A stretch of 64,000 nt of DNA from Brachybacterium sp. Z12 (GTDB lineage: Bacteria > Actinomycetota > Actinomycetes > Actinomycetales > Dermabacteraceae). The notes below the pieces were generated by a model, which was not told where the DNA came from, searched no databases, and saw only the letters and a list, made by a program, of their open reading frames with translations. Positions 19,739 to 24,169 of the stretch are shown in pieces (position 1 is the first letter of the stretch; each line of letters begins with the position of its first letter). The translations under genes and the position numbers were made by a program. Where the stretch lies: positions 2,046,001 to 2,110,000 of the forward strand of contig NZ_CP060496.1 of the NCBI RefSeq assembly GCF_014400405.1, in the 5' to 3' direction.

Positions 19739-22300
19739 ATGTCGATCCTGATGCCGTTCCTGCCCGAGAGCTCCACCGACGCCGGACAGGACGCGATCGT
19801 CGACGGGTTCATCGAGGCCCAGGAGACCGTGGGCCGCACCCTCTACCCGCACCAGGAGGAGGCGCTGCTGGCGATCGCCGCCGGTGACCACGTCATCGCC
19901 GCGACCCCCACCGGCTCGGGCAAGACCACCATCGCCTATGCCGCGATCTTCGCCGCGATGGCCCGCGGCCAGCGCTCGTACTACACCGCCCCGATCAAGG
20001 CGCTGGTGAGCGAGAAGTTCTTCGACCTCGTCGCCCAGTTCGGTGCCGAGAACGTGGGCATGATGACAGGCGATTCGGCCGTCAACCACGACGCCCCGAT
20101 CATCGTGTGCACCGCTGAGATCTTCGCCAACCACGCGCTGCGCGACGGGCCCGGCAGCGGTGTGGGCCTGGCGGTGATGGACGAGTTCCACTACTACGGC
20201 GACCCGCAGCGCGGCTGGGCCTGGCAGGTGCCGCTGGTGGAGCTGCCCCACTGCCAGTTCGTGCTGATGAGCGCGACCCTCGGGGATGTGACCCGCTTCG
20301 TCGACGACCTCACCGAGCGCACGGACCGGGACACCACGGTCATCGCCGATGCGCCGCGCCCGGTGCCGCTCGACTTCCGCTGGTCGCTCACCCCACTGCC
20401 GGAGACGATCGAGACGATCCTCCAGGACCGGGATGCGCCCGTGTACATCGTCCACTTCACGCAGAAGGACGCCCTCGAGCAGGCACAGGCCCTTCAGGGC
20501 CAGAAGATCCTCACCGGCGAGGAGAAGACGCAGATCCGCGAGATCATCGGAGACTTCCGCTTCTCCAAGGGCTTCGGGCAGATCCTCTCCCGCCTGGTGC
20601 GCGAGGGCATCGGCGTGCACCACGCCGGGATGCTGCCCAAGTATCGGCGACTGGTCGAGAAGCTCGCCCAGTCCGGGCTGCTGAAGATCATCTGCGGCAC
20701 CGACACCCTCGGAGTCGGCATCAACGTGCCGATCCGCACCGTGCTGCTGACCGGGCTCGCGAAGTTCGACGGCAAGCGGATGCGGCTGCTGAACGCTCGC
20801 GAGTTCCACCAGATCGCCGGCCGCGCCGGCCGCGCGGGCTACGACACCATCGGGCACGTCGTGGTGCAGGCCCCGACGTGGACCATCGAGTTCGAGAAGG
20901 AACGGGCCAAGCAGCGAGCGCGCGAGGAGACGGGGAAGACGCCCCACAGCGCCAAGAAGCGGAAGAAGGAGCCCAAGCCCCGCATCCCGGAGGGCGCGAT
21001 CAGCTGGTCGGAGACGAACCTGACCAAGCTGGTCGAGAATGCTCCCGAGCCGCTGCGCCCGCACCTGAAGATCACCGCCGGCATGCTCCTGGCGCTGATC
21101 TCGCGCCCAGGCGATGCGATCGCCTCCGGCCGCCACCTGATCATGACGAGCCATCAGACGACGGCGCAGAAGCTGAAGCTGGTCAAGGACGCCGTGGAGA
21201 TCTTCCGTGGCCTCAAGGAGTCGGAGATCATCGAGATCCTCGATGCCCCTGACCATCTCGGCCGGCGCTTCGCCCTGGTCGAGGACCTGCAGCTGGACTT
21301 CACCATGAACCAGCCGCTGGCGCCCTTCGCGATCGCGATGATCGACTCCCTCGACGAGGAGTCGGAGTCCCTCACCCTCGACACCGTCTCGATCATCGAG
21401 GCGGTCCTCGAGGACCCGCGCCAGATCCTCCTCGCCCAGCAGAACTCCGCCAAGGGCGAGCTGCTGGCTGAGCTCAAGGCCGACGGAGTCGAGTACACCG
21501 AGCGGATGGCGCTGCTGGACGAGGTGACCTGGCCCAAGCCGCTGCAGGAGGATCTGGAGGCCGCGCTCGAGATCTACGCGCGCTCCCGCCCCTGGGTGCG
21601 CACCGATGACCTCTCCCCCAAGTCCGTGGTCCGCGAGATCTACGAGACCGGGCAGACCTTCAGCGAGTTCGTGCAGCGCTACGGCCTGCAGCGCTCCGAG
21701 GGCATCGTGCTGCGCTATCTCTCCGACGCCTATCAGGCGATGCGGCGCACGATCCCGCAGGATCTGCGCACCGAGGATCTCGACGACCTCATCGAATGGC
21801 TCGGGGTGCTGGTGCGCGGCATCGACTCGTCCCTGCTGGACGAGTGGGAGGCGCTCACCCATCCGGAGGATGCCGATCCCGACGGCGCCTCCGAGATCCG
21901 CCCCACGACCCCGCGCGGGCTCTCCTCGCAGACGAAGGTGCTGCGCACCATGGTGCGCGCCGCCATGTGGCAGCGGATCGAGCACTTCGCCTTCGAGCGG
22001 GAGGCGCGCCTGGGAGAGCTCGACGGCGCCTCCGGCTGGGATCGCCCGCGCTGGGCGGCGGCGATGGACGAGTACTACGACTCCTACGACGACGTCGGCA
22101 TCGACGGCGCCGCGCGCTCGCCGCAGCTGCTGCAGATCACCGAGGAGTCGAAGATCTGGCGGATCCGGCAGGTGATCGAAGACCCGGAGCGCAACCATGA
22201 CTGGGCGATCGAAGCGGAGCTGGACCTCGAGGCGACCGATGAGGCGGGCGAGCCGGTGCTCGCTATCACCCACGTCGGCGACCACGCCTCCCGCCCCTGA
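19739..22300 (+). CDS. Ski2-like DEAD/DEAH-box RNA helicase (DUF3516 C-terminus)
   Basis: An intact 853-residue superfamily 2 helicase. Walker A is A-T-P-T-G-S-G-K-T (55-63), the Walker B box is D-E-F-H (148-151), followed by S-A-T, H-H-A-G-M-L-P, the G-V-G-I-N-V-P segment and motif [13 protein letters not shown] charged insert near 390-420 (K-K-R-K-K-E-P-K) precedes a long C-terminal DUF3516-type region. It probably remodels RNA or RNP in the cytoplasm. Actinobacteria carry this in addition to other helicases. One of the few long genes here without a frame break. Confidence 0.88.
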   Translation: MSILMPFLPESSTDAGQDAIVDGFIEAQETVGRTLYPHQEEALLAIAAGDHVIAATPTGSGKTTIAYAAIFAAMARGQRSYYTAPIKALVSEKFFDLVAQFGAENVGMMTGDSAVNHDAPIIVCTAEIFANHALRDGPGSGVGLAVMDEFHYYGDPQRGWAWQVPLVELPHCQFVLMSATLGDVTRFVDDLTERTDRDTTVIADAPRPVPLDFRWSLTPLPETIETILQDRDAPVYIVHFTQKDALEQAQALQGQKILTGEEKTQIREIIGDFRFSKGFGQILSRLVREGIGVHHAGMLPKYRRLVEKLAQSGLLKIICGTDTLGVGINVPIRTVLLTGLAKFDGKRMRLLNAREFHQIAGRAGRAGYDTIGHVVVQAPTWTIEFEKERAKQRAREETGKTPHSAKKRKKEPKPRIPEGAISWSETNLTKLVENAPEPLRPHLKITAGMLLALISRPGDAIASGRHLIMTSHQTTAQKLKLVKDAVEIFRGLKESEIIEILDAPDHLGRRFALVEDLQLDFTMNQPLAPFAIAMIDSLDEESESLTLDTVSIIEAVLEDPRQILLAQQNSAKGELLAELKADGVEYTERMALLDEVTWPKPLQEDLEAALEIYARSRPWVRTDDLSPKSVVREIYETGQTFSEFVQRYGLQRSEGIVLRYLSDAYQAMRRTIPQDLRTEDLDDLIEWLGVLVRGIDSSLLDEWEALTHPEDADPDGASEIRPTTPRGLSSQTKVLRTMVRAAMWQRIEHFAFEREARLGELDGASGWDRPRWAAAMDEYYDSYDDVGIDGAARSPQLLQITEESKIWRIRQVIEDPERNHDWAIEAELDLEATDEAGEPVLAITHVGDHASRP

Positions 22301-22315
22301 GGGAGTTCCTGGACA

Positions 22316-22361
22316 GCAGCACGGAGGCCGGCGCCCCATCGGGGCACCGGCCTCCTGCTGC
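22316..22361. terminator. Bidirectional hairpin between helicase and repeat-peptide genes
   Basis: GCAGC-N-N-GGAGGCCGG-N-GCCCC pairs with GGGGC-N-CCGGCCTCC-N-GCTGC around ATC. It lies between convergent genes, 15 bases after the helicase stop and 41 bases after the peptide stop. Confidence 0.75.
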
Positions 22362-22402
22362 GCGCCCGCGCGGCGAGCGCGGCGCAGCACGTCAGCGAGG
22401 GG

Positions 22403-22647
22403 TCACCAGGGATTGACCTCGACCCAGGGGTTCACCTCGACCCACGGATTGACCTCGACCCACGGGTTCACCTCCACCTGCGGGGTGGTGACCTTCCACG
22501 GGTTCACCTCGACGGCGGAGGCGGCGCCGGCGCCGGCGACTCCGAGCGCGATCCCGAGAGCGGCGCCTCCTGCGAGCCGAGCCCCCGGGCCATCCAGCGG
22601 CGCGCTCGGGGCGCCACGTGAGTCCCCTCCATGTCAGATCTCATCAT
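22403..22647 (-). CDS. Small secreted peptide with five VEVNPW repeats (one frameshift)
   Basis: The restored product is about 81 residues. ATG 22647 has AGAGGA about 6 bases upstream; further in-frame ATGs follow at 22644 and 22632. A signal peptide is clear: basic R-R-W-M-A-R-G-A-R, hydrophobic A-G-G-A-A-L-G-I-A-L-G-V-A-G-A-G-A, then A-S-A. After it the protein is V-E-V-N-P-W, the spacer K-V-T-T-P-Q, then four more V-E-V-N-P-W in tandem and stop, so the mature peptide (about 36 residues) is nearly all repeat. The frame break is at CCCCC 22582-22586, inside the signal peptide; one added base joins both parts. It lies downstream of the secreted protease gene on the same strand. I do not recognise a family. 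Function unknown. Confidence 0.65.
22406..22513 (-). repeat. Coding hexapeptide repeats, 18-base unit
   Basis: Four tandem 18-base units (22406-22477) and a fifth at 22496-22513, separated by 18 bases of different sequence, all encode V-E-V-N-P-W. Units differ only at synonymous positions: GTG/GTC, AAC/AAT and CCG/CCC vary while the protein is unchanged. This pattern suggests selection on the peptide rather than recent DNA slippage. Confidence 0.85.
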
Positions 22648-22754
22648 TCTGGTCCTCTCGAAGGAAGCTGGACGGCTTTGGGGGAAGTCCGCTATGCCCA
22701 GAATACCCGGCGTGAGGGCAATCACAAGGTGCTCGTGCCTTCCCTCGCACGTGG

Positions 22755-22811: not shown

Positions 22812-23856
22812 TCAGGCCGCCGCAGCCTCCTCATAGACCTCCTGGGCGACATCACCCAGGTACGGCCCGTACATGACGTTCGGCTGCGCCGTGTAGCCGA
22901 AGCTGTTCACGGAGATCTGCATGCCGTCGGCGCCATCACCGACGAACCACGGACCACCGGAGGAGCCACCGGTCATGTCACAGTCGATGGCCTGGTCGTC
23001 GGTGCCGCCGAGCGTGTCGTCGACTCCGTAGTCCTGGCACTGCTCGAGGCTCTCGCCGTCGAACGGGGCCGCGGCCGGGTAGCCGTAGGAGGTGTACAGC
23101 TCGCCGCGCTGGGTGTTGAACTCGATGCCGGAGGCGCCCACGGTGTCCGCGAGGTCCTGGCTGCCGGACTCGGCTGGACGACAGCGAACGCGATGTCGTA
23201 GTTCATGTCCTCCTGGCCGACCCACTGCTGGGGGCGTACAGCTCGGTCGCGCTCCACAGGCCGTGGGGCGTGTCTCCGTTGTCGTAGCCGGGGGCGAAGG
23301 CCCAGTTGCTGGCCCAGGTCCCGCCCTCGCTCGTGCAGTGCCCGGCGGTCGAGACGGTCGAGCCGTTGTCGGAGGCGACGGAGTTGCCGGAGCACACGTA
23401 GTCGCTGCCTCCGACGGTGAAGAAGACCTTACCGATGTGCGCGCTGTCGGTTGCTGCGGCGCTGGGATCCTCGTCCCAGCCCCAGTCGCCGGCCTCCGCC
23501 TCACCATCGCCCTGTCCGCCTGCGGCGATCGCGGGTTCGGCGTCGATGCTCGGCACCTGCACCGTGCTCGAGGACTCCACCTGACCGTCCGGGGCCTCGC
23601 TGCCCTCGATCAGCTCGTCGGCGGGAGTCGCCGCCTCCATCCGTTCCGCGGTCCAGTAGCCCGCTGCGTCCTCCTGGGCTGACTGCGAGAACGACGTGCT
23701 CTCGAACTGGTCATCGGCCGGCTCCGCAGAGGCCAGCCCGGCGCCGCCGAACGCCAGCGCCGCCGCGAAGGCGACACCTCCGGCGACGCGTGCGCCGCGC
23801 CCGAGATGGTGCGTCAACGGCGTGCAATGGTCCTGGGGTTCCTGATCGTGGGTCAC
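22812..23856 (-). CDS. Secreted trypsin-like/V8-type serine protease (two frameshifts)
   Basis: The restored preproprotein is about 348 residues. A signal peptide (hydrophobic G-G-V-A-F-A-A-A-L-A-F-G-G-A-G-L, then A-S-A) is followed by an acidic propeptide of about 120 residues and a chymotrypsin-fold domain. The catalytic triad is visible: His in T-A-G-H-C, Asp in N-Y-D-I-A-F, Ser in G-G-S-S-G-G-P. The domain is most like V8/glutamyl-endopeptidase-type extracellular enzymes. Frame breaks are at GGGGG 23230-23234 and near 23171-23174; one base added at each restores A-P-Q-Q-W-V-G-Q and V-Q-P-E-S-G. GTG 23856 has AAGGA upstream. Cleavage specificity is a guess. Confidence 0.8.
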
Positions 23857-24169
23857 CGTGAGGATCCTTCCGAGGGGTGGGGACGGGAGCGGCCGTCCTT
23901 GGCCGCGGACCACACCGTACGGGGCGTGAGCCAGATCACGGCAGGGGTCGAAAGTACGTGGTGACCGGCCGGTCACCGGCCCCTGGGACGTTCGGACGAT
24001 GACCAGCCTGCGCCCCGGAGGTGCCCAGATCCTCGCGCCCGCCGCTGTCTGCACAGGTGCTGCCGGGTTCTGGACGATCGTCCGCCACGCAGCCGCGGGC
24101 GAGCGGTCGGAGTCGTCGGCCTGGCAAGATCCAGACGAAAGTACCTCCGAGCTCGGGCGCGCCGGGCGT
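23857..24169. other. 313-base gap between protease and nitrate operon
   Basis: No supported gene. It should hold the protease promoter (minus strand). It contains the 18-base palindrome described separately and a direct repeat CGAAAGTAC at 23949-23957 and 24136-24144. No clear terminator for the nitrate operon is seen. Confidence 0.5.
23960..23977. promoter_or_regulatory. Perfect 18-base palindrome upstream of the protease
   Basis: GGTGACCGGCCGGTCACC is fully self-complementary with no spacer and lies about 104 bases upstream of the protease start. It could be a dimer-binding operator (TetR or GntR type). No regulator gene is adjacent. Confidence 0.45.

Follow-up and report, generated by a model that had tools for sequence, protein, structure and literature searches.

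In Actinomycetota, quorum signals are typically small molecules made by enzymes, and peptide signals encoded in precursors are a theme of Bacillota, according to the excerpted text of PMC10075063. The closest described systems are the tandem pheromone precursors of Bacillota, for which the available sections of PMC11343458 give a Sec signal, a propeptide of 50-120 aa and pheromones of 5-10 aa, present in internal and C-terminal copies that number up to 8. The window analysed here (the whole stretch of 64,000 nucleotides from Brachybacterium sp. Z12) holds, on its minus strand, a small gene for a predicted signal peptide followed by VEVNPW repeats. With a probability of roughly 40%, this gene may code for a Sec-exported precursor of multicopy hexapeptides, which would be cut outside the cell into short peptides that likely serve as a signal. 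The gene lies between a helicase gene and a peptidase gene, and the locus comprises the following features:

19739-22300, plus strand: convergent DEAD/DEAH helicase with DUF3516, a constant neighbour (19/19 genomes)
22323-22355, no strand: G+C-rich hairpin in the gap that separates the convergent genes, possibly a shared terminator
22405-22403, minus strand: stop codon of the micro-protein
22406-22513, minus strand: mature repeat region VEVNPW-KVTTPQ-(VEVNPW)4, 36 codons, from translation of the window
22514-22582, minus strand: signal-peptide hydrophobic core and cleavage motif (ARLAGGAALGIALGVAGAGAASA), in frame with the repeats, from reading and a profile match
22582-22588, minus strand: break in the reading frame of the micro-protein gene in this assembly (relatives intact), from two tblastn pieces in different frames
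22585-22647, minus strand: ATG start codon at 22647-22645 and N-region of positive charge, out of frame with the repeats
22653-22659, minus strand: RBS-like GAGAGGA, to which GAGAGGA or a GAAAGGT-like sequence corresponds in relatives
22700-22727, minus strand: promoter-like TTGTGA-N16-TATTCT, a motif derived from these sequences
22711-22726, minus strand: CRP/GlxR-like palindrome TGTGATTGCCCTCACG, within the promoter-like site, where it overlaps the -35 region and the spacer
22812-24054, minus strand: secreted trypsin-like peptidase, its reading frame broken twice in this assembly and intact in relatives

The original prediction described five VEVNPW units, four of them in tandem, right after a signal peptide. 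These are present at 22513-22406, directly preceded by a hydrophobic stretch that ends in GAGAASA with an A-S-A signal-peptidase motif, and the tandem array was also detected by TRF. The further claim that the copies differ only synonymously was confirmed, as the five copies vary at 4 columns, each a third codon position, and all 22 differences over their 10 pairs are synonymous. An antisense reading (plus-strand ORF 22197-22715) was ruled out, since the columns that vary fall on third codon positions when read in the minus frame. The assignment of 22403-22647 to one micro-protein frame did not hold: the span measures 245 bases, which is no multiple of 3, and the start codon and the signal peptide are out of frame with each other. 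No ATG, GTG or TTG stands ahead of the mature part in the repeat-bearing frame of the window, and the protein of an intact relative aligns by tblastn in two frames, at 22647-22585 and 22582-22406. Since the neighbouring peptidase gene is broken as well and the Z12 genome (1 contig, 3.51 Mb) is listed as only 85.7% complete, indel errors of the assembly probably lie behind the broken frame; a true mutation in Z12 is a possible alternative. A broken frame, which the original prediction had counted against itself, is thus found in the Z12 assembly, but the frames of the relatives are intact. It is very improbable that the frame is spurious or decaying and gives no product in Z12. The frame break that parts the start codon from the signal peptide in the Z12 assembly would fit such a reading; however, the coding pattern, the promoter-like site and the position are conserved in 19 genomes, the frames of the relatives run from start to stop, and the broken peptidase next door hints at assembly errors.

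Homologues with conserved repeats in related genomes, the touchstone that the original prediction had set for itself, do exist: the gene was found in 19 of 38 Brachybacterium genomes. A protein search of these genomes (E ≤ 0.01) gave a match in 21, all inspected by reading, and the matches in G002, G013 and G018 (E 6.6e-6 to 0.003) proved to be without a signal peptide and such repeats. Reading of the strand opposite the helicase end, which covered 19 of the 20 remaining genomes (those with a helicase match; G029 has none), revealed a divergent member in G036, also matched by profile A1, in whose construction this member was included. A DNA pattern of VE[VI]NP followed by Q, W, R or a stop codon occurs in 15 of the 38 genomes, with only two matches outside the repeat genes (the G028 peptidase and an antisense-looking frame of G001, G001:C7), and the reversed pattern, used as control, gave 0 matches in the same genomes. 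Because the matches fall nearly all within repeat genes and the control gave none, the VEVNP-type repeats are not a product of chance. On a quickly built tree from the C-terminal part of the helicase in 37 genomes, 19/19 carriers fall within one 23-member clade (SH-aLRT 95) and presence of the gene needs a minimum of 4 state changes, for which a single origin followed by a few losses would be the simple reading. The 4 members of this clade that lack the gene are G002, G015, G016 and G020.

A family search, which took in 47 genomes and among these 9 of other genera, yielded no member beyond the genus after reading; the matches in G044, from another genus (E 3.3e-5 and 2.8e-4), arose through signal peptides of longer proteins without repeats. 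An order-wide search covered 396 genomes drawn from a larger group and matched 21, of which 12 belong to the genus and 9 lie outside; all nine outside matches were read and none is a family member. Six of these nine are S8 peptidases, one is a WYL-domain protein and one is a short frame of VTVSPH-like units. Two frames over degenerate DNA repeats were also judged unrelated to the family: a short one with RIAP-like units (G001:C26:9839-9976, L125) and one of 93 aa with RAAVNP-like units and no signal peptide seen (G163, L130), which is the ninth of the outside matches. The G022 protein gave no match to plasmids and phages at E ≤ 0.01.

All 19 members show, by reading, the signal-peptide layout, in agreement with the predicted secreted micro-protein. 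Their 120 units comprise VEVNPQ (40), VEINPQ (26), VEVNPW (14), IETNPL (8), VQINPQ (7), IETNPQ (6), IQGNPQ (6) and others (13). The unit type is clade-specific (VEVNPW, VEVNPQ, VEINPQ, VQINPQ, IETNPL/Q or IQGNPQ), and the change between clades reaches even the charged position of the unit, as VQINPQ and IQGNPQ are without E. Each gene carries 3-13 copies in a mature part of 28-85 aa, and the whole precursor measures 73-130 aa (17 intact genes, counted from 45 codons before the cleavage site). The first unit begins at the predicted cleavage site, right after A-x-A, in 18/19 genes, the exception being G036, where S-S-A is followed by a short stretch before the first unit. At the other end the last unit abuts the stop codon in 14/19 genes, and 5/19 have extra C-terminal residues; this C-terminal position and the copy number agree with the layout, and the layout only, of RRNPPA-type peptides. 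The spacer stretches (n = 56) are most often 1 (25) or 6 (18) residues long. They differ from the units in composition: K/R make up 1/720 residues in units vs 48/215 in spacers and tails, and D/E 107/720 vs 1/215.

Selection at the peptide level, which the original prediction had read from the synonymous variation, is apparent between genomes as well. When the window was compared with its nearest relative, G027, the units showed synonymous changes at 9 of 18.3 sites and no nonsynonymous change over 71.7 sites, and the 4 nonsynonymous changes of the mature part all lie within the spacer. Comparison of unit with unit inside genes gave a pN/pS of 0.065, a value favoured downwards by the picking of units by motif. 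When all in-register hexamers were compared with the spacers counted in, the value was 0.99; this covers the 11 genes with a chain length divisible by 6, although G024 and G009 among them are in fact out of register. Because the value rises to 0.99 once the spacers are included, the constraint bears on the units and not on the chain; judged by these substitution patterns, strong purifying selection acts on the units but not on the spacers. Such strict conservation suggests that the hexapeptide itself acts extracellularly, perhaps as a signal.

The release of short peptides is favoured because the unit and not the chain is conserved, the edges of the units coincide with those of the chain, and basic residues mark the spacers. 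The constant distance of the promoter-like site and the resemblance of the layout to published tandem pheromone precursors also speak for this reading. Against it count the long spacer-free runs in several species, where a protease would need to cut at W|V or Q|V, the lack of a recognised adjacent receptor, the extra end residues in 5/19 genes and the change of the unit between clades. An intact repeat peptide fits the same facts almost as well, and it is quite possible that the mature chain acts as a whole, as a small extracellular or cell-surface peptide in which NP turns between short VEV strands form a flexible multivalent polymer that binds wall, matrix or surface. The surface-binding peptide named in the original prediction is thus likewise a possible reading. 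Tandem units that are homogeneous per genome and variable between clades are also usual for structural repeats, NP occurs in 117/120 units with TP in the other three, the spacers often hold the 6-residue period (18/56), and Pfam Hexapep matches 3/18 scanned members at E ≤ 0.01, with the best score below the curated cut-off. However, an intact chain sits less well with a threefold variation in length and a fourfold variation in unit number, and no anchoring motif was seen by eye in the C-termini. Single-sequence AlphaFold2 models of the G026 member (mean pLDDT 61, pTM 0.25) and of the window frame (mean pLDDT 64, pTM 0.14) give a signal-peptide helix and repeats without secondary structure, which speaks weakly against such a chain; with their low confidence, these models are weak evidence and compatible with every reading.

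The trypsin-like peptidase gene lies within 5 kb of the micro-protein gene in 14/19 carriers. It matches the window in three tblastn pieces, and Pfam Trypsin_2 stays below its cut-off (E 0.16 for the window piece; 25.5 bits vs 27.6, E 2.4e-5, for the intact G014 relative). The genus has two related versions of this peptidase: the first precedes the micro-protein gene, and the second lies past the helicase. Of the 14 genomes that carry both the peptidase and the micro-protein gene, 13 have the peptidase signal peptide as the top match to the micro-protein profile once the micro-protein gene itself is set aside. Moreover, the pro-region of the peptidase reads IPAVEVNPQ in G028 (L041) and IPAVEVDPQ in G024 (L047), and both resemble the unit repeated in the adjacent micro-protein. 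From the shared signal peptide and the VEVNPQ in the G028 pro-region, we infer that the micro-protein gene may have begun as a copy of the peptidase gene start.

An origin of this kind also underlies the proposal that the micro-protein acts on the peptidase next door as a decoy or regulator, with repeats that mimic a site in the pro-region. The common signal peptide, the proximity of the two genes and the motif in G028 and G024 agree with it, the G028 site being one of the only two pattern matches outside the repeat genes in 38 genomes. Yet the shared signal peptide bears on origin more than on function, and the exact VEVNPQ is present in G028 alone among the 9 directly upstream peptidases. 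In the 38 genomes, both genes occur in 14, the micro-protein gene only in 5, the peptidase only in 8 and neither in 11 (peptidase E ≤ 1e-25), which rules out an obligate pairing with the peptidase as the sole function. A tree-based correlation test found 1 to 4 independent pairs, too few to decide for or against a link. A decoy or regulator is, on balance, unlikely.

The micro-protein gene and the DEAD-box/DUF3516 helicase stand tail to tail in 19/19 carriers. The upstream neighbour varies: it is the trypsin-like peptidase in 9 genomes, narI with or without DUF6457 in 7 and amino-acid biosynthesis genes in 2, and in G030 the contig ends just upstream. No adjacent pheromone-receptor (TPR) gene was recognised in the neighbourhoods of the 19 genomes, that of G030 ending upstream at the contig edge. 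PF18768 (RNPP_C) gave 0 matches in the 38 genus genomes, a weak test, as the model was also silent in Bacillus subtilis among its 14 controls. Nor were immunity, transporter/export or modification genes recognised at the 19 loci, where some of the neighbours were scanned with Pfam and immunity genes of an unknown kind would escape. A bacteriocin-like product, another of the functions first proposed, was left unsupported by this neighbourhood. Although the small size, the signal-peptide layout and the variation between species would suit a bacteriocin-like or otherwise antagonistic secreted peptide, typical bacteriocins are cationic, and the net charge of the mature part ranges from -10 to +1, positive in 1/19 only (G003). 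Such a function is highly unlikely.

Candidate expression signals lie on both sides of the gene. In 19/19 genomes the best promoter pair stands 207-220 bases ahead of the codon that opens the mature part, and it scores 9-12 of 12, but the TTGTGA/TATTCT motif was picked by eye from these upstream regions, which makes the scores partly circular and the perfect score of the window a result of construction. The best score of a single-base shuffle (300 in all) was usually 7, with 9 reached 24 times and 10 three times. The constant distance of the site is a stronger point than the motif scores. A TGTGA-N6-TCACA-like palindrome with at least 4 of 5 complementary positions is present in 10/19 upstream regions. 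Within one mismatch, the window has no site other than TGTGATTGCCCTCACG, and with 0.89 such sites expected by chance this is not significant by number alone. The palindrome resembles the GlxR consensus TGTGANNTANNTCACA, as given in the excerpt of PMC4254451 in which GlxR is described as mostly an activator. The Z12 genome has three matches above the cut-off to a Crp-type helix-turn-helix family, two of them strong. The placement of the palindrome inside the promoter-like site suggests repression. Within 130 bases after the stop codon, 16/19 genes have a hairpin with arms of 10 or more and no more than 1 mismatch, vs 22/190 shuffles.

The micro-protein family is undescribed as far as the searched literature, Pfam and NCBIfam extend, although the layout itself is already known from tandem precursors. 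As the original prediction had supposed, no family in Pfam or NCBIfam fits the repeat (18 members scanned), and the literature search returned no description of the gene. Like Pfam Hexapep, which forms a left-handed beta-helix, the micro-protein has a six-residue period with a branched hydrophobic residue. In contrast to Hexapep, most of its units are without glycine. Identity with the left-handed beta-helix was rejected, as the best match (E 7.4e-6) scores 25.9 bits against a curated cut-off of 27 and the two predicted models, of low confidence, contain no strands. Other Pfam and NCBIfam models match one to three members each; the ten from NCBIfam are mainly hexapeptide-repeat acyltransferases (best E 2.9e-5). 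Profile A1 found nothing credible among solved structures, where 15 sequences reached E ≤ 1 and the best was the proteasome subunit RPN2 (0.0076).

Nearly the same tandem hexapeptide occurs in S8 peptidases from other families of the order (L115, L117 and L119-L122; Peptidase_S8 confirmed by Pfam for L117 and L121). These proteins of about 520-550 aa, in which no signal peptide was seen, have a linker that leads into the catalytic domain and holds 4-5 tandem PFIETN, PLIETN, PFIATN or PFMKTN (FMKTNP) units; IETNPL is found in the G026 micro-protein too. However, the S8 repeats lie inside a peptidase, and the mature chain of the micro-protein comprises 28-85 aa in all. Because an S8 relative is present in just 1/38 genus genomes (G003, L124; E ≤ 1e-15) and has different repeats, GGMWAGV, at the same place in the linker, kinship was rejected and convergence appears likelier. 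In a WYL-domain protein (L118, WYL confirmed), a linker likewise holds roughly ten (E)VETNP-like repeats. From the trypsin-like peptidase next door, with which it shares a similar signal peptide and, in G028, the VEVNPQ motif, the micro-protein differs in having no catalytic domain and in not always being present together with it.

Summarizing, what the genomes display directly is the layout, the conservation of the units, a promoter-like site of conserved position and a distribution within one clade. We infer transcription, export, processing and a signalling role of the micro-protein, and a repetitive pheromone-type precursor appears to be the best of the three functions that had been guessed at first. 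The propeptide would be exported through Sec, and cleavage by signal peptidase I after A-x-A would leave a short chain of hexapeptide copies (VEVNPW in Z12). Extracellular proteases may then cut this chain at the basic or aromatic spacers and at the unit borders into short NP-containing peptides, which would act outside the producer, most likely as a kin signal. The hexapeptide would thus be the functional item, and its dose would be set by the copy number. A conserved multicopy hexapeptide precursor offers a concrete and cheap test of whether actinobacteria also signal via short linear peptides, as each residue of the candidate peptides is defined and the peptides vary from clade to clade. 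Should the chain instead act as a whole, it would be a minimal natural repeat polymer. A wider and rather doubtful proposal is a gene-encoded hexapeptide signalling of actinobacteria, with a multicopy secreted precursor, clade-specific dialects (NPW, NPQ, NPL) homogeneous per genome, control of the CRP/GlxR type, a receptor outside the known families and an origin separate from RRNPPA via the copied peptidase signal peptide. Unlike the Phr propeptides, the micro-protein belongs to another phylum, has no recognised adjacent RRNPPA receptor and would undergo a processing that is putative; it reaches up to 13 copies vs the up to 8 reported in the available sections of PMC11343458, and its spacers are often absent. 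Like the tandem Phr propeptides (Rap-Phr, RRNPPA, Bacillota) described in the same sections, it combines a Sec-signal layout and a similar length with a short peptide in internal and C-terminal copies, separated in places by spacers (PMC11343458).
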